This document shows positions 44,242 to 56,614 of a stretch of DNA of 64,000 nt, piece after piece. Location of the stretch: positions 1 through 64,000 of the forward strand of contig CAIQWJ010000041.1 in the NCBI GenBank assembly GCA_903875575.1, read 5' to 3'. Each line of letters starts with the position of its first letter. Within the stretch, counting starts at the first letter, position 1. This DNA is from an uncultured Acidobacteriia bacterium (lineage in GTDB: Bacteria > Acidobacteriota > Terriglobia > Bryobacterales > Bryobacteraceae). The translations under genes and the position numbers were made by a program. Below the pieces are notes generated by a model, which was not told the origin of the DNA, ran no database searches, and saw nothing but the letters and a program-made list of their open reading frames with translations.

Positions 44242-44568
44242 TTACTTCTTCAGCGAACGAATATACGCCACAACGTCGTCAATCGCGGAACCGGTCACGT
44301 TCTTGGCTGCCGGCATTTTGCCTTTGCCCGCCGTGATGACGGTCTTGATATCGGCGTCGCTCTTACCCTGGATTGCGGCGTCAGAGAGGACCGGGATGGC
44401 TACGCCAAACGACTTGGCGACTGCGGCGTTCGGGGTGGCCCCGCCTTCGCCGTGGCACATTTTGCAGGACTTGCCAAATACCTCGGCTCCATTCTTAACA
44501 TCCGCCGCAAGGGCGACACCGGCGACGGTTGCGGTCAGGGCAACAAACGTAACGATCAGTTTCTTCAT
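44242..44568 (-). CDS. Periplasmic monohaem cytochrome c (class I)
   Basis: A 108-residue protein with a signal peptide (MKKLIVTFVALTATVAGVALA) and one c-type haem in GKSCKMCHGEGG (about residues 32-43). The downstream Met candidate is in GKMPAAKN. This is a small soluble electron shuttle. AAGGAG lies 6 bases before the ATG, the best ribosome site in this locus. It is the last gene before the terminator and follows the tetrahaem gene after a 71-base gap. By position it could carry electrons between the multihaem proteins. Confidence 0.92.
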   Translation of the reverse strand: MKKLIVTFVALTATVAGVALAADVKNGAEVFGKSCKMCHGEGGATPNAAVAKSFGVAIPVLSDAAIQGKSDADIKTVITAGKGKMPAAKNVTGSAIDDVVAYIRSLKK

Positions 44569-44639
44569 AAATCTCCTTCTGCTCTGTAATTATATCTGTC
44601 GCGCAGGCCAATCGGCACGCGCGGGTCCGTTAAAGTTTC

Positions 44640-45767
44640 CTAATTCGTCTTCTGCTCGTTCAGGAACGCCAGCATGTCCGCCATCTCGCCGGCTTTGAAG
44701 GTCGGCCATGGAATATTCTTCTGTTCCATCATGTTCTTCATCTGTGGACCATGGCTCCATATAACAGAGACCATTCGAATGGGGTTAAAGGTTCCAGCTT
44801 GTTCCGCCAGTTTCGGTCCCGGCCCCGCTCCCGCGTGACATTCGGTACATCGTTTCGCCTCAAACACCTTCTTGCCGCGAACGGCGCTGCCGTTGACTCC
44901 GAAGAACTGACCGGCCCAGTAGTAGCCCAGAACCGACCTCATCTCGTCGCCTTCGAACCGTGGCGGCTTGTTGTGCAGAAAGGAAGCGTGATTCCACATG
45001 GAAGCCGCTATGCTCGTCAGCGTCGATTCTTTGGCCGCGATCTTGCTCGGGTCATGACAAGTCGCGCACCCGCGCGACGTAAACAGGCTGGCACCTGTCT
45101 CTCCCGCCAGAATATGGAACTTCGGCTTCTCGGCGCGTGCCGCCGCGGAACTCGTGCGGATGTAAACCAGGAGATCCGTCATCTCCTGCGAGTTCAGCGT
45201 AGGCCACTTGAAATTCTTCCGCTGGACTTCGTCCCACATATCGGACGAATGGTTCCAGTTGGCGCTCACCAGTGCAACCGGATCGGAGAGTCCCTGCCAC
45301 AAACTCAGCGGCTTGGCCTTGGGATTGACCGGCGTCGTAATGCCGTGGCACTTCGCGCAGGCTTTCTCGGTGAAGAGTTCCTTGCCGCGGGCAGCGTCCC
45401 CGGCCTTCTCAAAGAAGCGCGAGGCGTAGAGCATCGCCAGCAGATCGGCCGCATCGTTCACGGTCAGCCTGCCCACGGTCACGTTGCGCTCGGTTCCCTT
45501 GGCCCACATCCCCGGCGCGTGATTCCACATGGTGCTGGCCAGTTCCGCCGGCGTGAAAGCCCGGTCCAGGACGCGCAGCAAGTTGGGGCCAATTTTGCCC
45601 CCTCTGCCGTTCAGTTCATGGCACTGGATACAGCCCATATCGACGAATACCTTCTCGCCGCGCACCGAATCCATATCGGGAATACCGGCCGCCAGTGCGG
45701 TGGCAGAACACCCGGCGAAGAACAACACAGCCATCGACAACGCCGTTAGCCAAACGGATTTTCTCAT
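44640..45767 (-). CDS. Tetrahaem cytochrome c made of four tandem domains
   Basis: A 375-residue exported protein with a hydrophobic leader ending FFAGC-S, which may be a lipobox (lipid anchor on Cys20). Four CXXCH sites: Cys46-His50, Cys137-His141, Cys234-His238 and Cys307-His311. Each is followed about 30-35 residues later by a W-x-H motif and then Met or Leu: MWNHAPGM (80-87), WNHSSDM (171-177), MWNHASFL (257-264), WSHGPQM (337-343). Each domain ends in a GEM/SQEM-like helix. This looks like fourfold duplication of one class I cytochrome c unit. The ATG overlaps the porin stop as ATGA, tying its expression to the porin. Confidence 0.9.
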   Translation of the reverse strand: MRKSVWLTALSMAVLFFAGCSATALAAGIPDMDSVRGEKVFVDMGCIQCHELNGRGGKIGPNLLRVLDRAFTPAELASTMWNHAPGMWAKGTERNVTVGRLTVNDAADLLAMLYASRFFEKAGDAARGKELFTEKACAKCHGITTPVNPKAKPLSLWQGLSDPVALVSANWNHSSDMWDEVQRKNFKWPTLNSQEMTDLLVYIRTSSAAARAEKPKFHILAGETGASLFTSRGCATCHDPSKIAAKESTLTSIAASMWNHASFLHNKPPRFEGDEMRSVLGYYWAGQFFGVNGSAVRGKKVFEAKRCTECHAGAGPGPKLAEQAGTFNPIRMVSVIWSHGPQMKNMMEQKNIPWPTFKAGEMADMLAFLNEQKTN

Positions 45768-47842
45768 CGCGTATACCTCAATCCAACGGTCACCAGGTGC
45801 GCCCGGAAACTCTGATACTGGTAGAAGGCTTCTCCGAAGCCGTAGTAACGCCACTCACCGAAGAACGAGACCTTTTTCGCCATCGGCGCGGTGATTTTCG
45901 CCGTCGGTTGATACCAGGTCGTCGGATTTGTTCCGGAGGTCATGACTGCGGCACCGCCGGCTTCCAGGGTCATTGTCCGTTTCTTTGCCCCCTTGCCCGC
46001 TGACAGCGTCGCATTGAGATTGCCGGAAATCCGGTGGCAGTTCTCGGTGAATACCGAGTTGCCGGGCGAGAGCATTTGCGGCACCAGGAACGCTACCTCG
46101 GTGTGATAGCCACAATGCTCGTACGTGGCATCAACCGTGAACGCCTTGCTGCGCGGAGTATATGCCAGAGTTGCCGACGCCTGATGCGTCAGGTACTTGT
46201 ACGTATCGCCGGCCAGAGGGTTCTGATTACTCATGATACGAAAATCGCCCGAAACCTGCCAGCGCTTCAGGAACGAATAACGTCCCATGGCGCGGACTCT
46301 CTGGTAATTGTACAGGCTGGAGCGGAAGTAGGTGCCCCCGCTTTCCGCGACCTCGGCTTCACCGCTGACGAAGATCTTCTGCGTAGGTCGCCAGGAGATT
46401 GTGCCCATTTCGACGTTACGCCGCATTTTATCCGTGCTCAACAGAAAGAGGCCGTCGGCCGGAGCTACCGCGTCATTCGTCGTCCCCCACATGTACCGAT
46501 AGCCGCCCCGGAGCGTAAGTCCGTCGCCGGCATCGAACAGGACGTTGGTCTCCGCCTGACTCGAATGATAGTCCAGCGTGGAGTTTAGCGCCAGCGCCGT
46601 CGTCGCAATGTTGTTGCCGGATACGGCCTGCGCCCCGTTTTGCGTCGCGGTACTCCTGTTCGCCATCCGATCCGTCAGAAAGGACTGCAGAATTCGGATC
46701 CGGTGATAAGGCCGGATTTCCCAGCCCGCGTTTATTGTGGTGTGCGGGAACCGCGTGGAAGAACTCACCAGATACTGTTCGCTGCTGTAGAAAAGCAACT
46801 GACTCAGGATCACCATGTTCCCGTTGTCGAACTGCTGATAATTCACATCGGCGTGCGGTCTTGTGTACATGGCCTGGGCATACACGTCGAACCACGAAGT
46901 GGGGCTCGAAGTCAGAATGGCTTTCGTAAAATTGCTGCTGCCGCGAATCCCGTAAGCCTGCATCAGATGAGTCAGACTCAGCGTCTGGCCATAAATCGGA
47001 TTGGTCAGATCGCCCAGGTTGGTGCCGTTGGTCAGGTCACTCTGGTCGCCGCGGAAATTTGTGTAGCCTTCTTCCAGTGTGGCGTCAAAGTGCCGGAATG
47101 CGGCACGGAAGCCTGCCCGCAACAGGTTGGTCAAATCGTCCATCTGATCCGCAATCGGATATACGTTGCCATCGCTCTGGAACGTCGTGACGCCGGTGCC
47201 CCGGCTGGAATCGCGTTCTGCGGCAACGTAGGGCGTAAAGGCGCGGCCCGGATGGAATTCGAAATTGAGGCTGGTGATCCTCCGATGCCGGTCAAACGAC
47301 TGCTGGTCGAGCGCAATGCCCCTGGCCAGCAGCGGGTCCGCGTAGGCAGGCAGATTGTTGAAGTAGGAAATACCCCGATAGTCGATGTTCAGTCGGTACG
47401 TCTCCGCCTTCTTGGCGTCGAAATGAAACGTCGAATAAGGATCGCCACCCCAGCCGGCTGCCCGAAGATGAGCAGTATCGAACAGGCGACGGCTGGCCTG
47501 CAGGAATGTCAGGTCCAGGCCGACCAGCTTTGGCCCCTGGCCCAGGTTCACGACGCTCCGGTAGGTATCGAAACTGCCGCCGGGGGTATTCAGCCACCGA
47601 TAGCCGATGTCCAGCGTGCCGGTTACCCACGAATCGCCGGTCGGCCTCGATTCGGGCGCTGCGGCCGGGGCGGGGGCCGCCGATACCGTTGTGTCGGCGG
47701 GTTTCGCTTCGGCGGCGGGAGTTGCAATGGCCGCCGGTGCGGCACCCGTTGCCGCCGGAGGCGTCTGCGCAGAGAGAATGCATGTCGCCCCTGAGAGGCT
47801 GACCACGAGCATCATTGTGCGGAAATCCATGTGGCGTCTCAT
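45764..47842 (-). CDS. Outer-membrane beta-barrel partner of a decahaem cytochrome (MtrB/PioB-like), copy 1
   Basis: A 692-residue outer-membrane protein. A signal sequence (MMLVVSLSGATCILSA) is followed by an Ala/Pro-rich linker of about 45 residues and then many amphipathic strands rich in Tyr, Phe and Arg; the chain ends VTVGLRYTR. Strand signatures such as GGYRYMWGTTNDAV and YSFLKRWQVSGDFRIMSNQN suit MtrB/PioB-type barrels, which hold a periplasmic multihaem cytochrome in the membrane. The N-terminal CXXC of Shewanella MtrB is not present. It starts at an ATGA overlap with the decahaem gene and ends at an ATGA overlap with the tetrahaem gene, a strong sign that the three work together. 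Other multistrand porins remain possible. Confidence 0.75.
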   Translation of the reverse strand: MRRHMDFRTMMLVVSLSGATCILSAQTPPAATGAAPAAIATPAAEAKPADTTVSAAPAPAAAPESRPTGDSWVTGTLDIGYRWLNTPGGSFDTYRSVVNLGQGPKLVGLDLTFLQASRRLFDTAHLRAAGWGGDPYSTFHFDAKKAETYRLNIDYRGISYFNNLPAYADPLLARGIALDQQSFDRHRRITSLNFEFHPGRAFTPYVAAERDSSRGTGVTTFQSDGNVYPIADQMDDLTNLLRAGFRAAFRHFDATLEEGYTNFRGDQSDLTNGTNLGDLTNPIYGQTLSLTHLMQAYGIRGSSNFTKAILTSSPTSWFDVYAQAMYTRPHADVNYQQFDNGNMVILSQLLFYSSEQYLVSSSTRFPHTTINAGWEIRPYHRIRILQSFLTDRMANRSTATQNGAQAVSGNNIATTALALNSTLDYHSSQAETNVLFDAGDGLTLRGGYRYMWGTTNDAVAPADGLFLLSTDKMRRNVEMGTISWRPTQKIFVSGEAEVAESGGTYFRSSLYNYQRVRAMGRYSFLKRWQVSGDFRIMSNQNPLAGDTYKYLTHQASATLAYTPRSKAFTVDATYEHCGYHTEVAFLVPQMLSPGNSVFTENCHRISGNLNATLSAGKGAKKRTMTLEAGGAAVMTSGTNPTTWYQPTAKITAPMAKKVSFFGEWRYYGFGEAFYQYQSFRAHLVTVGLRYTR

Positions 47843-48798
47843 TTCATCAGGAACCTGTCCGCATAGCTGCCGTGAAGCTTCTGGTGGCAGACCGTGCAGT
47901 TTTGATAAACGGGAGAATTCAGATTGTGCAGTGCTGGCGGCACCACGCCCATGGCGAGACTCTCGCCGGGCACCGCGTTCGGCATATTCGCGTGGCATTC
48001 CAGACAAACCTGCCGCACTGTTGAGCGAACCAGCATTCGCGGATTTGCCGAGCCATGCTGTTCATGGCACGCCGTACATCCATCGAACTTCACCGGCGCG
48101 TGTTCAAAGGTAAACGGGCCACGCTTGTCGCCATGGCAGGAAAGGCAACCAGGCTCGCTGGCCGCAAACGTTTGCGTCATGGTGGGCCGCACTGTGCCAT
48201 GCGGATTGTGACAATCCACGCACTTCATGGCGTTTTCCGGAATCTTGTGCCGGAAGGGCATTTCAAACTGAGCTTTCACATTGGCGTGGCAGCCTTCACA
48301 GAGAGTGTTGACGTCTGCGTTCTTCCGCGCCACCAGCAGCGTGCCGCCATTGACATGCATTTTGTGGCAACTGGGGCAGGACACAGCGTTTTTCGCGTGC
48401 GTGCTTTGTATGCGGCCCGCGTGCGTCGGCTGATTCAGATGGCAATTGAGACACATCTTGTCGGTTTCGGCCGCCGACAGCTTAGAAGGGAATCGTATGA
48501 AGGAAATATCACCTGTAGAAGCGTGTTTGGCACCCGGTCCGTGGCAGGATTCACAGACGTGTCCCTGAAAGCCATAGCGGGGATCCGTCTCCAGCACGCG
48601 GTGGGCGTTGTTGTGGGTGACGTTGTTGAAATTGTCCTCATGGCACATCTGGCACATATCGGAGCCCGCGTAATCGTCCCCAAAGGCCTTGGGGACTACA
48701 GCGGGCTTCTGTGCGAACAGACTTCCGGAGAGGAACAAAAGCGCCGCAACCCCGGTTGCCCGAAGGTTGCGGCGGCGAGAAGGACAGACATTTTCCAT
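47839..48798 (-). CDS. Periplasmic decahaem cytochrome c (DmsE/MtrA-like), copy 1
   Basis: A 319-residue exported cytochrome with ten CXXCH sites at residues 49-53, 82-86, 116-120, 141-145, 167-171, 193-197, 218-222, 241-245, 265-269 and 301-305. Doubled pairs such as CVDCHNPHG and CTACHEQHG are typical of the DmsE/MtrA family, whose haem chain carries electrons through an outer-membrane barrel. The signal peptide is around residues 13-29 (RATGVAALLFLSGSLFA). I preferred the ATG at 48798 (GGTGA nine bases upstream) to a GTG at 48810 that lies within a hairpin. The stop overlaps the porin start. Confidence 0.92.
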   Translation of the reverse strand: MENVCPSRRRNLRATGVAALLFLSGSLFAQKPAVVPKAFGDDYAGSDMCQMCHEDNFNNVTHNNAHRVLETDPRYGFQGHVCESCHGPGAKHASTGDISFIRFPSKLSAAETDKMCLNCHLNQPTHAGRIQSTHAKNAVSCPSCHKMHVNGGTLLVARKNADVNTLCEGCHANVKAQFEMPFRHKIPENAMKCVDCHNPHGTVRPTMTQTFAASEPGCLSCHGDKRGPFTFEHAPVKFDGCTACHEQHGSANPRMLVRSTVRQVCLECHANMPNAVPGESLAMGVVPPALHNLNSPVYQNCTVCHQKLHGSYADRFLMK

Positions 48799-48814
48799 GC
48801 TGTTAGTCACCGGA

Positions 48815-48848
48815 GCCCCACGGTCCCGGAAATCCGAAACCGTGGGGC
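48815..48848 (-). promoter_or_regulatory. Intercistronic stem-loop between the two decahaem genes
   Basis: A perfect 10-bp stem (gccccacggt / accgtggggc) with a further small stem in its loop fills most of the gap between the OmcA/MtrC-like gene and the DmsE/MtrA-like gene. There is no T-run on the minus strand, so it is not a classical terminator. It may set different levels of the two proteins by stabilising or attenuating the transcript. Confidence 0.55.
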
Positions 48849-48863
48849 AGCTTTCATTTTGTT

Positions 48864-51059
48864 TTAGTATTCTGCGTGAGCGATGGAAACCGCGAACGGC
48901 TGAACAACTCCGTTCACTGCTGCACTGTTATGGCAGATCGTGCAGCTCTCACCGAGTGTGCTGGTGTTGGCCAGCATATGGGAAGAGGCAGCCTGACTCG
49001 CATGGCATCCGCTGCAGGCCGCTGTAATGGCCGGCGCCGGATTGATGAGACCCTGCGGGGTCGTCATCACGTTCTTGTTCAGCGGAAGAGCGTTCTCGGT
49101 ACCCGCCAGGTGGCACATGGAGCAATTCGCCACATCCTGCGTGCCACCAGTGGGTGTGAAACCCGGATACCGGGTGGTGGAGTAATCGTGATGACTACCG
49201 CCGAACCCGACTACCGTGTAGCTGGAGCCGTCATTCGCCAGATTGCCGCCGTTGTGGATGCGGTGGACCAGGTAGTTGAAGTTAACGGCCTGGTTCGGTG
49301 CCGTTTTATCAGCCGCAACAACCGCGCTCGGACGTACCGGAGAATCGGTGGTCGACGGATTGTGGCACATGATGCACAGTTCCGTGTTCCGGCGCGATCC
49401 GCCGTGCAGTTCCAGTGAGAAGTGGCAGTTGTTGTTGCAGTTTGCCGTGGAAACTACCGCGCGGCGATTGACCACCGGCGTGCCATCCACAGAGAAGTAG
49501 ATCACGTTATTGTAGGGGCTTTCCGTGACCGTTTTCGCCGCTGTCGTGCCGGCGAGCAGGGTCTGTGCCACTCGCGATCCGTAGAAGCTGATCGCGTAGG
49601 TTCCGGTTGCGTTGGCCGGAAGCTTGTTTGTGAAGGTGTAAGAGCAGGCGCCAGCTGCGGAGCAGGTGACAGTCGTTGCGCTGCCGCTTTCCGTCAGATA
49701 GCCGGGAGTGGTGATGTTGCTGCCGAAGCTCGTATAACCATAGTCAGTGGTCGGGCCGGCCATCACGAAGGTGAGGGACGCCATCTGAGAATAAGCAAGC
49801 GCTTTACCGCTGCCGTCCAGAAGGTTGAAGTTGATGGTCGGAGCCTTGCCTGCCACGCCATTTGTGACGCTGGTCAGAGTGATCGCAACGCCGCCAAGTA
49901 AGGGATAGGTACTGCCTGGCTTGGCGTCTTCGGCGACGAAGTGCGCGCCCTTAACGGAAGCATCGAAGGGAAGTTCACCCTGCGGAATATGGCAGTTGGC
50001 GCACTGGCTGTCGCTCGCCTGCGGTCCACCGGGGTGATTCACGCCAGTCTTGAAGTTCACATCGTCATGGCAGGAACCGCAGGCTGCGGCCGTGGGTTTA
50101 GTCATGTAGAAGTTGGCCTGTTTCGCGCCTGCATTCTGATCATGGCACTTCTCGCAGCGGAAACCATTGGTCGCCGTGGCGTCGGAAGCTGATGTTGAGG
50201 CAGGGAATATGTTGGGAGAGAAGTCGTCGCTCCCAATCTTATAGATGCCGCCGGCAAGCACGCTGGGAAGCTGTGAACCCAGGTGGATCTTGTGAATCAT
50301 GACCTTGAAGTCCACCGTGTTGCCTGTGGCTGAGTCGGTGCTCTGCGGCGTGTGGCAAATGATGCAGAGTGCCACCTGACGGCGCGTACCGCCATGGTGA
50401 GACATCTGGTCGTGGCAGTTGTTGCAGGACGCCGTTGCGACGATGTCCCGGATCTGGGTGACGGCCGAACCATTTGGCAGGAAGCTATAGGTCGTGCTTG
50501 CGTAGTTGTTCGGAATATTGAAGGATGTCAGTGTGCGACGACCATACACACCAATCGTGTGAGTAGCTGTCGCGTCGAAGCCTGTCGGCGCCTTATTACC
50601 AAATACGTAGGTATACTGGCCGTTGCCAAGAGCCGTCAGTACGCCGCCCGAATCGGCGGCCGCAACCGCGAACGTTCCTGCTGCGCCGGTTTTGTTCGAT
50701 GTAATGTACGACGTGTACTGATCGCCGGTCTTCGGAATGTAGGCAACTACATAGCTCATCGTGATGACGCCGGGAGTGTTAATGCCTGTGTTATCCAGCG
50801 GTAGCCCGGAAGTGTCCTTCAACGTATAGGTAACCGAAATCACACCGGCTGATGAGATGGATGCCGTGTTGATGGTGACATTCAAACCGGATGCACCCGG
50901 AAAGTTAATGTTTGCGTCTGTAATATAAGCCAGCTTGTCCCGTAGGCCATACGGACTCTTGCCCGCGCCCGCCATGGTCAGCGCGGCGGCGGAAAGAAGA
51001 ATGAGCCAACAAGTCCTGGCCGTCAATCGTCTTCCTATCCTTCTCGCGATATTTTTCAT
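48864..51059 (-). CDS. OmcA/MtrC-family decahaem cytochrome c
   Basis: A 731-residue exported protein with two pentahaem modules, each after a beta-rich domain, as in MtrC/OmcA. Module one: haem sites at 212-216, 232-236, 302-306, 327-331 and 353-357. Module two: 541-546, 562-566, 646-650, 682-686 and 706-710. The first site of module two is CNNNCH, a CX3CH motif. A Cys466-Cys472 pair (CSAAGAC) is placed for a disulfide in the second beta domain. The signal region (CWLILLSAAALTMAGAG) has no lipobox, unlike Shewanella MtrC, so surface attachment must be by other means. ATG at 51059 was chosen because it precedes the signal. It would be the terminal reductase of the conduit. Confidence 0.9.
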   Translation of the reverse strand: MKNIARRIGRRLTARTCWLILLSAAALTMAGAGKSPYGLRDKLAYITDANINFPGASGLNVTINTASISSAGVISVTYTLKDTSGLPLDNTGINTPGVITMSYVVAYIPKTGDQYTSYITSNKTGAAGTFAVAAADSGGVLTALGNGQYTYVFGNKAPTGFDATATHTIGVYGRRTLTSFNIPNNYASTTYSFLPNGSAVTQIRDIVATASCNNCHDQMSHHGGTRRQVALCIICHTPQSTDSATGNTVDFKVMIHKIHLGSQLPSVLAGGIYKIGSDDFSPNIFPASTSASDATATNGFRCEKCHDQNAGAKQANFYMTKPTAAACGSCHDDVNFKTGVNHPGGPQASDSQCANCHIPQGELPFDASVKGAHFVAEDAKPGSTYPLLGGVAITLTSVTNGVAGKAPTINFNLLDGSGKALAYSQMASLTFVMAGPTTDYGYTSFGSNITTPGYLTESGSATTVTCSAAGACSYTFTNKLPANATGTYAISFYGSRVAQTLLAGTTAAKTVTESPYNNVIYFSVDGTPVVNRRAVVSTANCNNNCHFSLELHGGSRRNTELCIMCHNPSTTDSPVRPSAVVAADKTAPNQAVNFNYLVHRIHNGGNLANDGSSYTVVGFGGSHHDYSTTRYPGFTPTGGTQDVANCSMCHLAGTENALPLNKNVMTTPQGLINPAPAITAACSGCHASQAASSHMLANTSTLGESCTICHNSAAVNGVVQPFAVSIAHAEY

Positions 51060-51370
51060 GCTCCACACCTTTCGCGCCGGCTGTCCTGGTCCGGCCTGGT
51101 GCGTTAAGAGCATTCCAGGGGCCAATGTCGCCTTGTTTCCATAGATTTGTAGATTCGCAAAAACGCCCGCTTTTTGCCATGTTCACGTCTGGCTGCCCCA
51201 AAAACGCCTGCGCCCCTGAGGGTGGAGCCTGAGTGATTTGACGCAACTCCAGAGGGAGCGGGCACAGTTGGCTTGTTCCGATATACGTCCCGCCCTCCAA
51301 AACGGAAATGGAGAGCGAACCAACGAAAACTCCAAAAAGAGCGTATAGCGAAAAAATGTGGTTGAAACGG
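51060..51370. other. Upstream region of the OmcA/MtrC-like gene
   Basis: No protein-like frame. The gap must hold the promoter for the downstream half of the cytochrome locus, because a terminator sits at its upstream end (51371-51397). I find A/T-rich runs and a TATATC-like box near 51283 but no promoter pair with acceptable spacing on the minus strand. Confidence 0.35.
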
Positions 51371-51397
51371 AAAATGCCCGGGAGGGAGGCCCGGGCA
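51371..51397 (-). terminator. Intrinsic terminator after the first NapC-like gene
   Basis: Minus strand: 8-bp stem tgcccggg / cccgggca with a 7-base loop, then TTTT and a pyrimidine-rich stretch. It lies 30 bases after the stop of the NapC-like gene and divides the cytochrome locus into two transcription units. Confidence 0.8.
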
Positions 51398-51426
51398 CTG
51401 AACAACGATTTCGAAGGTAGCCTCTG

Positions 51427-52053
51427 TTATTTCGGCTCAGTCCAGAACTTGGCGTCTTTCAGATCGCCCACTTCATGGATCGTGTCGTGGCAGCTGGACG
51501 ACGTGCAGGAAAGCTGGCTCGCCTTCACCTTTTGCAGCATATCCGCTGTCTTGTGATGTCCGTTGACGGTTTCAAAGGCGCGGCTGCCCAGATGGCAATG
51601 CAGGCAGGTGGAATTCGGGAACGGTGAGGAGATCTTGATATCGGCAGGCTTGCGCGGAGTTCCGAAGTACTGAACATAAACATTCTTCAAGCCGTGAATC
51701 TTGGAAGTAATCCCTCCAAAGAGCGCGTAATCGGCGTGGCAGGTAAAACACGCCTGATCGCGGGGCACAAACCTGTTTTCAAAGTGCACTGCCGGGATGT
51801 AGCTCTTGTCGTCATAATGCAGGGTCTTGCCAAAATCCGCCATGACATGGCACTGCAGACAAAACTCCGTTGTACTCGCCCGCTCCTCATGCTCCGTATA
51901 GCCGCCCCAGACCGCTACGACGGGCAGTACCAGCAAAGCGACAAACGACAGGATCCTGCCTTCCCGCGTTCTTGAGATGCCGGCACGGAGGCCGACAAAT
52001 GCGGCGAGCGCGAAACTCAGAGCGATCAGCGTGAGGGTAATGGCGTACTGCAT
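51427..52053 (-). CDS. NapC/NirT-like membrane tetrahaem cytochrome c, copy 1
   Basis: A 208-residue inner-membrane protein with two N-terminal hydrophobic segments (about 3-22 and 34-52) and a periplasmic haem domain. Haem sites: CLQCH (65-69), CFTCH (102-106), CLHCH (150-154) and CTSSSCH (183-189), the last a CX4CH motif. Family members take electrons from quinols and pass them to periplasmic partners, as CymA or NrfH do. It is about two thirds identical to the gene at 52527 by eye. ATG at 52053 was chosen over a longer start because it begins the first membrane segment. A 252-base gap, with a hairpin at 52154-52172, separates it from the upstream small membrane protein. Confidence 0.88.
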   Translation of the reverse strand: MQYAITLTLIALSFALAAFVGLRAGISRTREGRILSFVALLVLPVVAVWGGYTEHEERASTTEFCLQCHVMADFGKTLHYDDKSYIPAVHFENRFVPRDQACFTCHADYALFGGITSKIHGLKNVYVQYFGTPRKPADIKISSPFPNSTCLHCHLGSRAFETVNGHHKTADMLQKVKASQLSCTSSSCHDTIHEVGDLKDAKFWTEPK

Positions 52054-52305
52054 AAGGTTTCGCTTCTCCCGAACTCGTAAAATGCCATCGCTGGAAAACC
52101 CTGCCGCGAGTCTGGACATAGTGCCAGCACCCGAGGCAGGCTTCCGGCAGGTCCCGTGGAAGCACTCCACGGACCAAAGTTACAGAACTCTTATAAACCG
52201 GGCAAATCGCCGCAATCCGGGCTTCCCGTCCTGCTTCGTCCGCCCCATGTAACGCTGGCTTTGCGCGATTAGACGCCACATCTGCGCGGGTTCGCTCTTC
52301 CCGGC

Positions 52306-52530
52306 TTAAGACTGGCCAGCCCGAGTCGCCGGGCTCACCGGCGCATCCGGGTGAGTGTGGCTCAGCAGGCTGAACACGTAATAAGCCACGCCAATCAGCA
52401 TGATCGGCACGCCGAAACCGACGAAAGCGATGAAAGCCAGCGGATGCAGCGGCAGCAGCGACAGGAATTGCAGCAACAGACCCGCGGCTACCATGAATCC
52501 GGCTCGGCGGAGTTTTGTCTCGATGTTCAC
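52306..52530 (-). CDS. Small membrane protein coupled to the NapC-like gene
   Basis: A 74-residue protein with two hydrophobic segments (about 10-28 and 31-55) and a polar Pro/Ala-rich tail (HTHPDAPVSPATRAGQS). No family recognised. The ATG overlaps the stop of the upstream NapC-like gene as ATGA, so it is made together with that protein. It has no Cys, so it binds no haem; an assembly or anchoring role in the quinol oxidase complex is a guess based on position. Confidence 0.6.
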   Translation of the reverse strand: MNIETKLRRAGFMVAAGLLLQFLSLLPLHPLAFIAFVGFGVPIMLIGVAYYVFSLLSHTHPDAPVSPATRAGQS

Positions 52531-53168
52531 TTGGCTTCAGTCTCCTTCGGTTCAGTCCAGAACTTCGCATCCTTCAGATCGCCCACCGCATGAATCGTGT
52601 CGTGGCAGCCGGAAGAGGTGCAGGAAAGCTTGCTCGCTTTCACCTTCTCCAGCATGTCGGCGGTCTTGTGATGCCCGTTCACTTCCTCGAACTTGCGTGA
52701 ACCCAGATGGCAGTGCAGGCAGGTTTCGTTCGGGAACGGCTTGTACAACTTGATATCGGCGGGCTTCGGAACATCACCGAAGTACTGCACATAAATGTGG
52801 TGCATCCCGTTAAACTTGGCTTTGATCCCGCCAAACATGGCGTAATCGGTATGGCATGTATAGCAAGCGTGTTCGCGTGGCACGCGATTATTCTGAAAAT
52901 GCGCGGCTGGAATATAGCTCTTGTCGTCGTAGTGCAGGCTCTTGCCGAAATCTTCCATGACGTGGCACGAAAGGCAGAACTGCGTTGAAGTGGCCCGGTC
53001 CAGGTGCTGTTCGAAACCGCCCCAGACCGAGACCACCGGAAGAATAAACAGCGCAACGAAGGCCAGCATCTTGCCCTCGCGCGTTCGCGAGAGTCCTTCC
53101 CGGAGTCCGACGAATAACGCGAGAATAAGACTCACTGCGATCAGCGCGAGGGTGATGGATATTGGCAT
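52527..53168 (-). CDS. NapC/NirT-like membrane tetrahaem cytochrome c, copy 2
   Basis: A 213-residue paralogue of the 51427 gene with the same layout: two N-terminal membrane segments, then CLSCH (65-69), CYTCH (102-106), CLHCH (150-154) and CTSSGCH (183-189). The fourth site again has CX4CH, and the flanking sequence DTIHAVGDLKDAKFWTEPK is nearly identical in both copies. It follows a monohaem cytochrome gene after 4 bases. As the likely entry point from the quinone pool, it could feed the decahaem-porin pairs. Confidence 0.88.
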   Translation of the reverse strand: MPISITLALIAVSLILALFVGLREGLSRTREGKMLAFVALFILPVVSVWGGFEQHLDRATSTQFCLSCHVMEDFGKSLHYDDKSYIPAAHFQNNRVPREHACYTCHTDYAMFGGIKAKFNGMHHIYVQYFGDVPKPADIKLYKPFPNETCLHCHLGSRKFEEVNGHHKTADMLEKVKASKLSCTSSGCHDTIHAVGDLKDAKFWTEPKETEAK

Positions 53169-53172
53169 AAAG

Positions 53173-53490
53173 TTACTTTGCGAGACTCCTGTAGTACTGA
53201 ACCAGGCCTTTGATCTGGTCCGGCTTGTAGTCCTTACCGAAACCGTCCATGTCCTTGCCCTTGCCTTCGGTGGCAATCTTGATCATGTCCGCTTCGGATT
53301 CCTTGGTCACGGTCTCGTGAATGTCCTTGACCTTCAGCTTCTTGCCCTTGGCGGTCTTCCCGGTTCCGTCTTCTCCGTGGCAGATGGAGCACTTATCCAG
53401 GAAGATGGCCTTGATGTCGGCCTGCGCCCAGCCTGCGGCTGTGCAGGTGAGACAGAAAAGAACGGCGGCTGCGATTTTCGATTTTGACAC
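53173..53490 (-). CDS. Periplasmic monohaem cytochrome c
   Basis: A 105-residue exported protein, signal peptide MSKSKIAAAVLFCLTCTAAGWA, one haem in LDKCSICHGEDGTG (about residues 31-44). The distal Met is probably in KDMDGFGKDY. Start is GTG directly after the porin stop codon, with AAGGAG 9 bases upstream inside the porin frame. Similar in size to, but not a close copy of, the 44242 protein. It probably moves electrons between the NapC-like proteins and the periplasmic decahaem cytochrome. Confidence 0.9.
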   Translation of the reverse strand: MSKSKIAAAVLFCLTCTAAGWAQADIKAIFLDKCSICHGEDGTGKTAKGKKLKVKDIHETVTKESEADMIKIATEGKGKDMDGFGKDYKPDQIKGLVQYYRSLAK

Positions 53491-55530
53491 TTAAAAACTC
53501 CTTGTCCATGAAATAAGTAGAATCTTCGCGCCAAAATTATTTCCCGGCACGATTTGTTCAATATAGTACGTGCGCTGCAATTGAACAGTCAGCTTGCCGA
53601 GCTTCACCGCATCCCAGCTCAGCGAACCGCTGGCATACGGGAAGGTCATCGGACCATATAACGGCAGAGAACCTAACACAATCCCCTGACCATTCACACG
53701 AACATAGTTGCCCGCGAGACTTACGCTGAAATGCTTCACCGGTCCCGCATTGACACCCGCCTGCCACAACCGGTCCACACTCTGATCCGTCAACGTGGCC
53801 TGCGAGACGAGAGCCAGCCCCGGCAGGAAGTTTACCGTGCTCTTCGCCCAGAAGCTGTCGTACGAGAAGCCCGCAAATGTCGAGACTTTGTCGCTGATTT
53901 CATAGGTCGCGGTGGAGGCGTTCGCACGCAGCCGGCTGTGGAAGTCCACCACGCTGAGCTTGCTGTCGCGCGTCGTTGTCGTATTTTCAATCCAGAACTT
54001 TTCGAGCGGCCGGACCCGCACCGTCACGTGGCTCCCCACGTCCGTATGCGGCGTCATCTGTGTATATGCGGTGCCGTTGTTGACTTCATCCACACTGGCG
54101 CGAACGGTAATCATCTGATTCGGCTTCCAGTTGACGTTGAGGGTTGGCCAGAACGTCTTGATTCGCTTCGTCTCGGATTGGTCGATCAGGCCATCCTCCA
54201 GCCGCTCAATATCGCTCTTGAGAAATCGAAATCCGGCGCGAACCAACAGCTTTGAAGATGGCGTGAACAACAGGTTGTAGTCGAACGTGCTGGTGCCGAT
54301 CTTCCACTGGTTCACGCTTGTTCCGGCGACTGTATATCCATTCCCGTATTGGGTCGTGACTCCGGTTTCCGTGGAACTGAACGCGCCGTTCCCGGTGACT
54401 TCAAATCTGGAGTAGCGATAGTCCGCCTGCATACTCAGCCAATTCTTTACATCCAATGTGAAGCCCTGATCGAGTACATGGCTTTTTTCGGTGAGCGTCG
54501 AAGCCGCCGTCTCGGAAAGTGAATAAGGCACAATCGTCGCAATCGAGGTCGTTCCGGCCTGACCGGAAGCCGACAATGCCAGCGTCGCAGGTCCCGTATA
54601 GTTGCGATAGTTATAGCTGCCGCGCGTTCTGAGCCTCGAAAAGATCTTCCCCGCGTAAGAGAATTCGTGAACCGGTGTCGAGAGCTTCCGGTAATCCGCC
54701 CACTTCGCGCTGGATAGCGGTTCCTGCGCCGACATGGCGCTGCTCACATTGAGACTGGTCTGGTTCGGGTAGGGATTAAATCCGTTGAACGAATCGCGCA
54801 TCCGTTCGAGCCCAGCCTTGTAGTGGAAGCTGAACGCGCGCAGCGTGTAATCCACGCCAACGGCCCCGCGGTTGGAAGTTTCGTCGATTAGCCCAACCAG
54901 GTAAAAGGGATTGTTTAACGCATAAGGTCGCCATTCCGAAGGCGAGCCGAAATAGTCCATGGTCCGCGTCGTATCATTCACTCCGTGCCGGGCGTTGTGG
55001 TTGTACTCCACCGTGAAGCGCAGGGAATTCGTCGCATGAATCAGCAGGTTGACCGAGCCAATACGCCGCACCGTAGCCCAGTCATGATTCGAAGTCAGGC
55101 CGAGCGCACCGCTCGGCAGCGTCGCGCCATCGTTCTGATTCCAGTAATAATGCGATTGCTGTACATTGACGCGCAGATCGTAGCGCTTCTTCTTCGAGGC
55201 CGTCATCTGCACCGTGCCCCACGGCTCGCCGCCGATGCCGTTGGCAACAATCGAATAGTTGTCGATGAACCGCGATTTCTTGCCATCGGCGAGTTTGCCA
55301 AAGAGGCTGAAATCGAGCAGACGGGGTCCGCTCTCCAGATCAAACAACTGCTGGTAGGAGGGTGTATAGCCGCTGAGCGACGTGAAACGATACCCAAATG
55401 TGACCGAGCCGGAGTTTTCGAAACTACCGATGACCAGGGGCTTATCCTGAGCGAACAGGGGAACGGTCAAAGCTCCGAGTGCCACCAGTGCCGCCGTCAG
55501 GGATTGGATTTTGTGAATGGTCCGTGTCAT
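53491..55530 (-). CDS. Outer-membrane beta-barrel partner of a decahaem cytochrome (MtrB/PioB-like), copy 2
   Basis: A 679-residue outer-membrane protein: signal sequence up to PLFAQ (about residue 28), then many amphipathic strands (for example GSVTFGYRFTSLSG, KWLSM-type and MSMQADYRYSRFEVTG-like repeats), and a C-terminal Phe (SWTRSF), the usual barrel insertion signal. It differs strongly from copy 1 but has the same neighbours and size range. It lies 16 bases after a decahaem gene, matching the MtrA-MtrB gene order. Porin identity rests on composition and context. Confidence 0.75.
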   Translation of the reverse strand: MTRTIHKIQSLTAALVALGALTVPLFAQDKPLVIGSFENSGSVTFGYRFTSLSGYTPSYQQLFDLESGPRLLDFSLFGKLADGKKSRFIDNYSIVANGIGGEPWGTVQMTASKKKRYDLRVNVQQSHYYWNQNDGATLPSGALGLTSNHDWATVRRIGSVNLLIHATNSLRFTVEYNHNARHGVNDTTRTMDYFGSPSEWRPYALNNPFYLVGLIDETSNRGAVGVDYTLRAFSFHYKAGLERMRDSFNGFNPYPNQTSLNVSSAMSAQEPLSSAKWADYRKLSTPVHEFSYAGKIFSRLRTRGSYNYRNYTGPATLALSASGQAGTTSIATIVPYSLSETAASTLTEKSHVLDQGFTLDVKNWLSMQADYRYSRFEVTGNGAFSSTETGVTTQYGNGYTVAGTSVNQWKIGTSTFDYNLLFTPSSKLLVRAGFRFLKSDIERLEDGLIDQSETKRIKTFWPTLNVNWKPNQMITVRASVDEVNNGTAYTQMTPHTDVGSHVTVRVRPLEKFWIENTTTTRDSKLSVVDFHSRLRANASTATYEISDKVSTFAGFSYDSFWAKSTVNFLPGLALVSQATLTDQSVDRLWQAGVNAGPVKHFSVSLAGNYVRVNGQGIVLGSLPLYGPMTFPYASGSLSWDAVKLGKLTVQLQRTYYIEQIVPGNNFGAKILLISWTRSF

Positions 55531-55546
55531 CTCATTTACCCGTTCG

Positions 55547-56614
55547 TCAGTTCAGGAAATTCCGGTCCGAATTCGAACCGTGAATCACCGAATGGCATCG
55601 TGTGCAGGCCCCGTTGGCCTGGAAGCTCTGGATATTGTGTGGCATGAGCGCTGTCGTGGTCGGCTTACCCACGTGGCACTGGATGCAAAGTGTACGCTCT
55701 TCGCGCCGGGCGAGCAGCATTTTGCTTGTGCTCCCGTGAGGAGTGTGGCACGCCGTGCAGCCTTCCACTCGTGACGCGGCATGTTCAAAAACAAAGGGTC
55801 CGCGCTTCTCCGCATGGCATTGCGTGCAGGTTTCAGATGCCAGTTGCTGTAGTTCGTGCTGGTTTGAGGTCCCGTGCGGCGAATGGCAGTCTGTGCACTT
55901 CATCGCGCCTTCCGGTACCCGGTGGTGCGTGGGCAGCGCGAACGCCGCCTTCACGTTCGCATGGCACTGGTAGCAGAGTTCCGGTTGATTCTTTTTCAGC
56001 AGACTGCTGTGCAGCCAGCGGTTCTCTTCGGGCAGTGCAGGCACGGAGAAGAATTTCGCCTGTGCGCTCTGGATGGCCTCGCCTTTCGGATTGTCGCTCG
56101 CCTCCACCAGATGGATGGAGTGGCAATCGAGGCAGGCCACACCCTGTTGTGCGTGGCTGGAATGATCGAACTGCGATTGCTGTTTGCTGCTCTGATGGCA
56201 AACCAGGCAACGCTCGGAGTTTACTTTCGAGTTGCCCTTGAACGCGAAGATCAGCTTATTGGCCGCTGCCGATTTGGCTTCGTCGCCATGGGACGCTTCC
56301 TGCCCGTCCGCATGAGCTTTACCGGCGCCGTGGCACATTTCGCAGCCAACCACGGAATCCTTGTGCTGGGGCAGCGAGGCATGCACCGTCTTGCCGAATT
56401 CGGTGAACTCGGACTTGTGGCATCTCCGGCAACGATCATTGCCAACGTAATCCGCCGCGGGAGACTTCTGGGGGATTGCCTTGGTGGTGACGGATGCCGG
56501 GACCTTCGATGCAGGGAGCGTTTGGGCCATCGCCACGGTCCCGGCCAGCGCGACCGCTGTCAAAACAACTGACAGTTTGACAAGCCCAAGTGTGTGTTTT
56601 CCGGTTGTAGTCAT
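55547..56614 (-). CDS. Periplasmic decahaem cytochrome c (DmsE/MtrA-like), copy 2
   Basis: A 355-residue exported cytochrome with ten CXXCH sites at residues 62-66, 91-95, 136-140, 161-165, 214-218, 240-244, 263-267, 286-290, 310-314 and 337-341. Signal peptide VVLTAVALAGTVAMA, ending near residue 30. CTDCHSPHG and CTACHTPHG are the same doubled motifs as in copy 1, but there is a longer insertion between sites four and five. ATG at 56614 was chosen because it opens the signal region; a longer frame to 56731 would cover the upstream control region. It is the first gene of the locus. Confidence 0.92.
   Translation of the reverse strand: MTTTGKHTLGLVKLSVVLTAVALAGTVAMAQTLPASKVPASVTTKAIPQKSPAADYVGNDRCRRCHKSEFTEFGKTVHASLPQHKDSVVGCEMCHGAGKAHADGQEASHGDEAKSAAANKLIFAFKGNSKVNSERCLVCHQSSKQQSQFDHSSHAQQGVACLDCHSIHLVEASDNPKGEAIQSAQAKFFSVPALPEENRWLHSSLLKKNQPELCYQCHANVKAAFALPTHHRVPEGAMKCTDCHSPHGTSNQHELQQLASETCTQCHAEKRGPFVFEHAASRVEGCTACHTPHGSTSKMLLARREERTLCIQCHVGKPTTTALMPHNIQSFQANGACTRCHSVIHGSNSDRNFLN

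Follow-up and report, generated by a model that had tools for sequence, protein, structure and literature searches.

A cluster of eleven minus-strand genes at positions 44242-56614 of a 64,000-nucleotide stretch of DNA (the window; contig CAIQWJ010000041.1, assembly GCA_903875575.1) from an uncultured Acidobacteriia bacterium of the Bryobacteraceae raises the question of why two pairs of decahaem cytochrome and outer-membrane barrel lie side by side, and in which direction each would carry electrons. The genome that holds the window is 5.98 Mb in size and 98% complete. Based on the protein families, predicted folds, gene order and conservation observed here, we consider it probable that the cluster encodes two adjacent MtrAB-type conduits for extracellular electron transfer (EET) which belong to separate, old lineages, are fed by NapC-like proteins and pass electrons outward, the flow, its direction and the partners being read from these features.

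In the direction of transcription the cluster consisted of mtrA2, barrel 2, a monohaem cytochrome, the first NapC-like protein (here NapA), a membrane protein of 74 amino acids (aa) and the second NapC-like protein (NapB), followed by mtrC, mtrA1, barrel 1, a tetrahaem and a monohaem cytochrome (Table 1), and every frame was open. Forty-four haem motifs were counted, comprising 41 CXXCH, one CX3CH in MtrC and two CX4CH that form the fourth motif of NapA and NapB, versus a mean of 0.73 and a maximum of 5 when the residues of the ten larger proteins were shuffled 1000 times. No open reading frame (ORF) of at least 60 aa in the rest of the window had more than two haem motifs, and the immediate flanks of the cluster encoded two sulfatases and an F420-type oxidoreductase. 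The gene coordinates and the motif total given in an earlier note on this DNA were reproduced, as was its count of eleven genes, although it had named ten proteins; the eleventh is the 74-aa protein, which has two predicted membrane helices. Its tetrahaem protein had four CXXCH motifs in total and proved to be built of class I cytochrome c domains in series (PF00034, PF13442).

Table 1. Features of the two-module cluster, listed in the direction of transcription.
Feature	Position	Strand	Basis
Module 2 MtrA2, DmsE/MtrA-family decahaem cytochrome, 355 aa, 10 CXXCH	55547..56614	-	TIGR03508; own supported clade
Module 2 MtrB-like outer-membrane barrel BAR2, 679 aa	53491..55530	-	AlphaFold2 and PDB fold match 6r2q_B
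Module 2 monohaem class I cytochrome c, 105 aa, GTG start	53173..53490	-	PF13442
Module 2 NapC-like tetrahaem NapA, 213 aa, probable quinol dehydrogenase	52527..53168	-	PF03264, motifs, hydropathy, family alignment
Module 2 small two-helix membrane protein, 74 aa, GTG start overlapping NapA stop	52306..52530	-	homologue profile
Second NapC-like protein NapB, 208 aa	51427..52053	-	PF03264; 73% identity to NapA
Terminator-like hairpin, NapB/mtrC interval	51373..51399	-	10-pair stem; -18.2 kcal/mol, z -3.75
Module 1 MtrC, OmcA/MtrC-family decahaem, 731 aa, 9 CXXCH and 1 CX3CH	48864..51059	-	TIGR03507; PDB matches
Module 1 MtrA1 decahaem cytochrome, 319 aa, 10 CXXCH	47839..48798	-	TIGR03508; PDB 6r2q_A
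Module 1 MtrB-like barrel BAR1, 688 aa	45764..47830	-	AlphaFold2 and PDB fold match 6r2q_B
Module 1 tetrahaem cytochrome, class I domains, 375 aa, 4 CXXCH	44640..45767	-	PF00034/PF13442
Module 1 monohaem cytochrome c, 108 aa	44242..44568	-	PF13442

MtrC matched TIGR03507 at 438.9 bits (cut-off 209.3) as well as PDB chains of MtrF, MtrC and OmcA, and MtrA1 matched TIGR03508 at 240.9 bits (cut-off 192.2) and chain A of the Mtr complex 6r2q at an expectation value (E) of 8e-36, a chain that is oddly named in the table of matches. The mtrC, mtrA1 and barrel 1 genes were adjacent with gaps of 65 and 8 base pairs (bp), and the tetrahaem gene was located directly behind barrel 1 with an overlap of 4 bp, as it is behind the barrel in many relatives. 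This placement corresponds to that of 'c-cytgroup 5' in Baker et al. (2022, PMC8805035), where Group 5 is described as mtrCAB with a tetrahaem gene right after mtrB, found exclusively in Acidobacteriia. Since the order mtrC-mtrA-mtrB-tetrahaem and the taxon match those published, module 1 is, judged from its sequence, the already known Group 5 MtrCAB of Bryobacterales. The earlier note had described a functionally parallel but differently arranged conduit, which was borne out for the presence of two distinct modules but not for module 1, a homologous MtrCAB in the published order. Group 5 clusters differ from the present one in that no inner-membrane quinone oxidoreductase is reported near them in that survey, whereas here two NapC-like genes are located upstream of mtrC and some relatives have an ImcH-like gene; the absence is an observation of the survey rather than a requirement of the group. 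Homologues of mtrC were detected in 24 of the 41 genomes searched, this one included, and the module 1 order was repeated across loci of the genus and in named Bryobacterales, Solibacteraceae and other acidobacterial metagenome-assembled genomes (MAGs).

Neither barrel matched a Pfam or NCBIfam model at E 0.001, barrel 1 had no match among PDB sequences, and barrel profiles built from 28 and 17 homologues found nothing among PDB sequences at E 1, so that a fold search was needed. The AlphaFold2 model of barrel 1 had a predicted local distance difference test (pLDDT) score of 82.2 and its top PDB match was 6r2q_B (MtrB; E 8.5e-16, template modelling (TM) scores 0.65/0.69), and the model of barrel 2 (pLDDT 81.0) had the same top match (E 1.3e-15, TM 0.67/0.69). 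All other entries among the 50 matches listed scored below TM 0.48; they were TonB-dependent receptors and barrels of a similar kind. The two barrel families also matched each other (hhalign 99.9%, E 7e-36), and by predicted fold both are of the MtrB type represented by 6R2Q, a structure from S. baltica. MtrA2 passed TIGR03508 as well (214 bits, cut-off 192.2), the PDB match of a decahaem protein mentioned above concerning MtrA1 only. The earlier proposal that both pairs are of MtrA/MtrB type therefore stood on the two points at which it was open to failure: both barrels were predicted to fold as MtrB, and soluble reductases were not the best match of either decahaem protein.

Module 2 is, on its gene content, a distinct and less described conduit that usually has no neighbouring surface cytochrome. 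A search of 399 class genomes for barrel 2 homologues gave matches in 102 at E <= 1e-8, many of them short matches to other barrels. Twenty-eight loci with a near full-length barrel 2 were examined, being the best matches of the search and not a random sample, and two of these came from the genus of the window and carried both modules. The mtrA2 gene was immediately upstream of barrel 2 in 27 of the 28 loci, the remaining one being a contig end, with a monohaem gene downstream in 24 and NapA downstream in 18. A same-strand mtrC was present in four loci (L023, L024, L133, L134) and absent beside the other 24. OmcA/MtrC proteins passed the cut-off in none of 22 genomes picked for carrying barrel 2, one of which (G016) gave a weak partial match, while the same search was positive in 8 of 8 genomes known to hold mtrC. 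The barrel 2 locus was seen in 21 of the 22, none with mtrC, and was not viewed in G126; the set leaves out G075, G108 and G113, whose barrel 2 loci were seen. Module 2 recurred in several families of the class. A search of a plasmid collection with MtrA2 gave two distant matches, from Photobacterium and Vibrio.

The literature searched, which mostly left out subscription journals and bioRxiv, contained no account of module 2 as a unit, and none of the two-helix NapC family or the small protein. The survey of Group 5 kept only clusters with mtrC, mtrA and mtrB (PMC8805035), so a second kind of conduit would be invisible to it. Related reports on Acidobacteria make it probable that parts of module 2 have been seen before: decahaem cytochromes have been reported in Arctic peat (PMC3669403), two porin-cytochrome complexes, one MtrB-related, in a Holophaga MAG (PMC7399161), 27 matches to PioA/MtoA in Acidobacteriia (PMC10654088), and putative EET systems in three Acidobacteria among hot-spring MAGs, where 'mto-like' systems without outside cytochromes were also described (PMC6137239). 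Pairs of MtrA and barrel with no other labelled cytochrome nearby were frequent in named loci (e.g. L175, L188, L190, L192, L197, L202). The genome of the window itself has a third DmsE-family decahaem and barrel pair on contig C33 (L233:1495-4568, +), with local identities to module 1 of 38% and 23%; a pectate lyase and a response regulator are encoded nearby.

A tree of 131 MtrA-like proteins was built by a quick method with labels assigned by locus and the Shimodaira-Hasegawa-like approximate likelihood ratio test (SH-aLRT) as the only support. Module-2 MtrA proteins formed a single clade of 23 rows (SH-aLRT 99), and those of module 1 were in another clade of 46 rows (SH-aLRT 99), 40 of them labelled module 1, five unlabelled and one mislabelled. 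The stray row, L023_13259, is a module-1 MtrA labelled module 2 in a locus that has both, and four long rows are unsure. The modules are separate lineages: their MtrA proteins belong to different, supported clades, and either module can be found alone in close relatives. A recent tandem duplication of one module was ruled out, the barrels being 18% identical and the MtrA proteins in separate clades. Two contigs titled Arcobacter sp. and Bordetella parapertussis (L163 and L180) had MtrA proteins inside the acidobacterial clades, so that either these MAG records appear to be mistitled or the contigs have been misbinned.

A 2018 comparison of 24 Acidobacteria genomes reported no complete Shewanella- or Geobacter-type mtr/omc operon, its only omcA/mtrC-related cluster being that of Geothrix (PMC5900883). 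Acidobacteria are common in soil and peat, and in the one genus studied here mtrC was present in 17 of 19 genomes. Barrel 2 (at least 50% identity) was present in six of the 19, a count that combines 12 genomes from one search with seven from another. Four genomes had both modules, 13 had mtrC only and two had barrel 2 only. Of those with both, the window genome and G008 (L023) have the modules next to each other, and G006 and G012 have them on separate contigs. Module 2 had its own mtrC in G008 and G006, and none was found on the 20-kilobase stretch around it in G012. The MtrC of the window was 68-69% identical to the module-2-type copies of the sister species and 62-66% identical to their module-1 copies; an origin as a mosaic of these two types was considered and rejected, as windowed identities had no clear breakpoint.

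The modules are probably also transcribed separately. The gene run was interrupted by a 252-bp gap upstream of the NapB gene and a 367-bp gap upstream of mtrC, the latter containing the terminator-like hairpin about 28 bp past NapB, which points to separate transcription of the two modules. Terminator-like sites were no commoner in the region than in shuffles (10 versus 13 expected), so this one hairpin alone was used, on account of its position and energy, and a promoter scan was uninformative with two sites versus 5.5 expected. Instead of the several ATGA overlaps of the earlier note, one ATGA (barrel 1/tetrahaem) and one GTGA (NapA/small protein) were found.

As the earlier note had it, the OmcA/MtrC protein is confined to one module and the NapC-like proteins are placed with the other. 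NapA and NapB each matched PF03264 (NapC/NirT) at 41.7 bits (cut-off 24.1) and were far under the cut-offs of the NCBIfam subfamilies NapC, NapC/NirT, TorC and NrfH; NapA alone had no match in PDB. Both have three CXXCH and one CX4CH motif and two hydrophobic stretches, and the NapA family alignment has a nearly invariant methionine two residues past the first haem histidine. Twenty-four of 26 NapA homologues in the loci had the same motif set and two (L141, L142) had four CXXCH, and all 26 had two hydrophobic stretches ahead of the first haem. NapA-type proteins were present in 67 of the 399 class genomes at E 1e-8 and in 20 of 396 genomes of the phylum at E 1e-20. A hydrophobic protein of 59-88 aa followed NapA in 29 of 29 loci. 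A profile of 15 of these sequences recovered 14 of 14 held-out loci (E < 1e-21) and, built without the window protein, found it at E 3.9e-27; no homologue was downstream of any of 305 other genes (mtrA1 0/90, mtrA2 0/39, barrel 1 0/68, barrel 2 0/28, mtrC 0/57, tetrahaem 0/23), and no Pfam family was over its cut-off for the small protein. From this conserved pairing we propose that the small protein is a subunit of the NapA enzyme, and the pair is a concrete candidate, open to testing, for the quinone link in acidobacterial EET. No small partner was seen for NapB, and none of the ORFs in the first sets of loci was matched by translation of the 367 bp that follow it. Four-CXXCH relatives of NapA with the same type of small protein were located beside PF13447 multihaem cytochromes at L142:9145-11280 (-), where the cytochrome has 8 haem motifs, and at L141:8733-10157 (+), which suggests that a NapA-type quinol enzyme may also serve periplasmic reductases.

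The window shares with the MtrCAB-CymA system of Shewanella the MtrA family, the MtrB fold, the MtrC family and a NapC-family quinol protein. CymA has four CX2CH motifs, while NapA and NapB have three CX2CH and one CX4CH. CymA, also a tetrahaem protein, has a single short membrane domain at its N-terminus (PMC6295460), unlike the two hydrophobic stretches of NapA and NapB, and its gene is located away from mtrCAB (PMC8805035), whereas the NapC-like genes here adjoin MtrCAB.

In the proposed working, NapA with its small membrane partner, and NapB, would oxidise menaquinol in the inner membrane, as their family suggests, and the mono- and tetrahaem class I cytochromes would shuttle electrons across the periplasm. 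Each decahaem MtrA would be held inside its MtrB-like barrel and pass electrons across the outer membrane, from MtrA1 to a surface MtrC and on to Fe(III), Mn(IV), humics or another cell, while module 2, with no MtrC of its own here, would end either with MtrA2 or with some partner that the analysis did not find. The modules would be old, separate lineages joined in this sub-lineage, and the quinol feeder of EET type would have arrived with module 2; with module 1 some relatives have a different, ImcH-like feeder. A more far-reaching and doubtful proposal is that module 2 is a conduit with a new kind of quinone enzyme, a two-helix tetrahaem NapC relative with a small two-helix subunit, normally without OmcA/MtrC, and that its position beside MtrCAB would here provide two ports of opposite direction or different potential on a shared quinone enzyme.

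Several observations weigh against outward flow through two NapC-fed conduits. Quinol oxidation and outward direction are read from the protein families, and proteins of the NapC family may work in either direction. In composition module 2 is as close to the Mto cluster of an Fe(II) oxidiser as to a reducing system. The MtrC of Shewanella is a lipoprotein, unlike the MtrC of the window, which had no lipobox by a simple pattern that matched 2 of 55 distinct MtrC homologues, so its surface location is assumed. The ImcH-like and CbcL-like proteins that relatives encode matched nothing in this genome, in a search that had no built-in positive control; as such proteins were not found, NapA and NapB are the best candidate feeders for both modules.

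It is rather unlikely that module 2 operates inward, like Mto of Sideroxydans or PioAB, with electrons from Fe(II), minerals or a partner passing by way of the monohaem cytochrome and NapA to the quinone pool while module 1 runs outward. The Mto cluster of Sideroxydans lithotrophicus ES-1 (slit_2494-2498, PMC13390432) has the same composition of decahaem protein, barrel, monohaem cytochrome and NapC/NirT-family protein, gene composition being all that was compared. The usual lack of MtrC with module 2 and the 27 PioA/MtoA matches in Acidobacteriia mentioned above (PMC10654088) also fit this direction. Module 2 differs from Mto in having one monohaem gene instead of two (MtoD and PmcA), in the paired hydrophobic stretches and the CX4CH as fourth motif of its NapC-like protein, in the small gene that partners it, and in its place beside MtrCAB. 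Against inward flow, none of the 7 PDB chains matching the monohaem protein was named MtoD, and ImoA of the Mto cluster has itself been reported as a quinol oxidiser (PMC9600427), so that composition does not fix direction. No RuBisCO was found in this genome, in which other CO2 pathways were not searched; there is thus no sign of Calvin-cycle autotrophy, which is a weak point against lithoautotrophic uptake.

Less probable again is that both conduits run outward to different acceptors, module 1 to minerals through MtrC and module 2 to soluble or shuttle acceptors with no surface cytochrome. DmsEF serves an extracellular molybdoenzyme, both decahaem proteins belong to the DmsE family (TIGR03508), and module 2 stands by itself in two sister species that lack MtrC, as it does in other parts of the class. 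No reductase is directly beside the cluster, however, and in place of the adjoining molybdoenzyme genes of DmsEFAB module 2 has the sulfatases and oxidoreductase mentioned above; the loci of relatives were scanned for cytochromes and the proteins of the window only, so that a reductase in them may have gone unnoticed. In addition, among the four genomes of the genus that carry both modules, two have an MtrC belonging to module 2 (L023, L024). That the cluster is a remnant or a periplasmic electron sink not used for EET is very improbable, since, although the organism has no known phenotype, none of the eleven frames is interrupted, the haem motifs and the gene order have been kept across genera and families, and both barrels model well.

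Outside this genome, acidobacterial conduits seem, from their sequences, to swap kinds of quinone enzyme. Six of 20 loci with mtrC and mtrA1 (L025, L026, L029, L034, L036, L040) encoded a protein of 460-521 aa with five CXXCH and one longer motif. The three such proteins scanned (L025, L036, L122) all had an NrfH-like region under the cut-off of the model, and that of L025 had three helices by hydropathy, the architecture of ImcH (PMC6295460). A homologue of the L025 protein was present on the same strand in 10 of 27 named loci with mtrC and mtrA1, a few of which are the same contigs as unnamed loci, and these counts are lower bounds because many loci stop at contig edges. Ten barrel 2 loci had no NapA, and five of these (L122, L126, L127, L128, L130) had a same-strand protein of about 500 aa with the five-plus-one motifs, accompanied in L122, L128 and L130 by a 9-haem protein of about 600 aa. 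In L122, the sole pair scanned, the 9-haem protein had a weak formate-dehydrogenase cytochrome b match and CbcL-like architecture. The two proteins were located together behind MtrA2 and barrel 2 at L122:11331-14584 (+), with the same pairing in L128 and L130. The likeness of the L025 and L122 proteins to Geobacter ImcH and CbcL (PMC6295460) is one of architecture alone, and the ImcH-like protein of the relatives has six haem motifs versus seven in ImcH. At L041:4814-8320 (-), in a genome from the same taxonomic order, a single open frame of 1169 codons with 28 haem motifs lay between the mtrC and barrel genes; it joined an NrfH-like region, in which there were three hydrophobic stretches, to four triheme repeats and a decahaem region of DmsE type. 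A signal-peptide-like stretch ahead of the decahaem part indicates that the product may be cut or separately started. The fused frame could possibly form a one-piece bridge from inner to outer membrane, and as a single frame it ties such dehydrogenases to MtrA.

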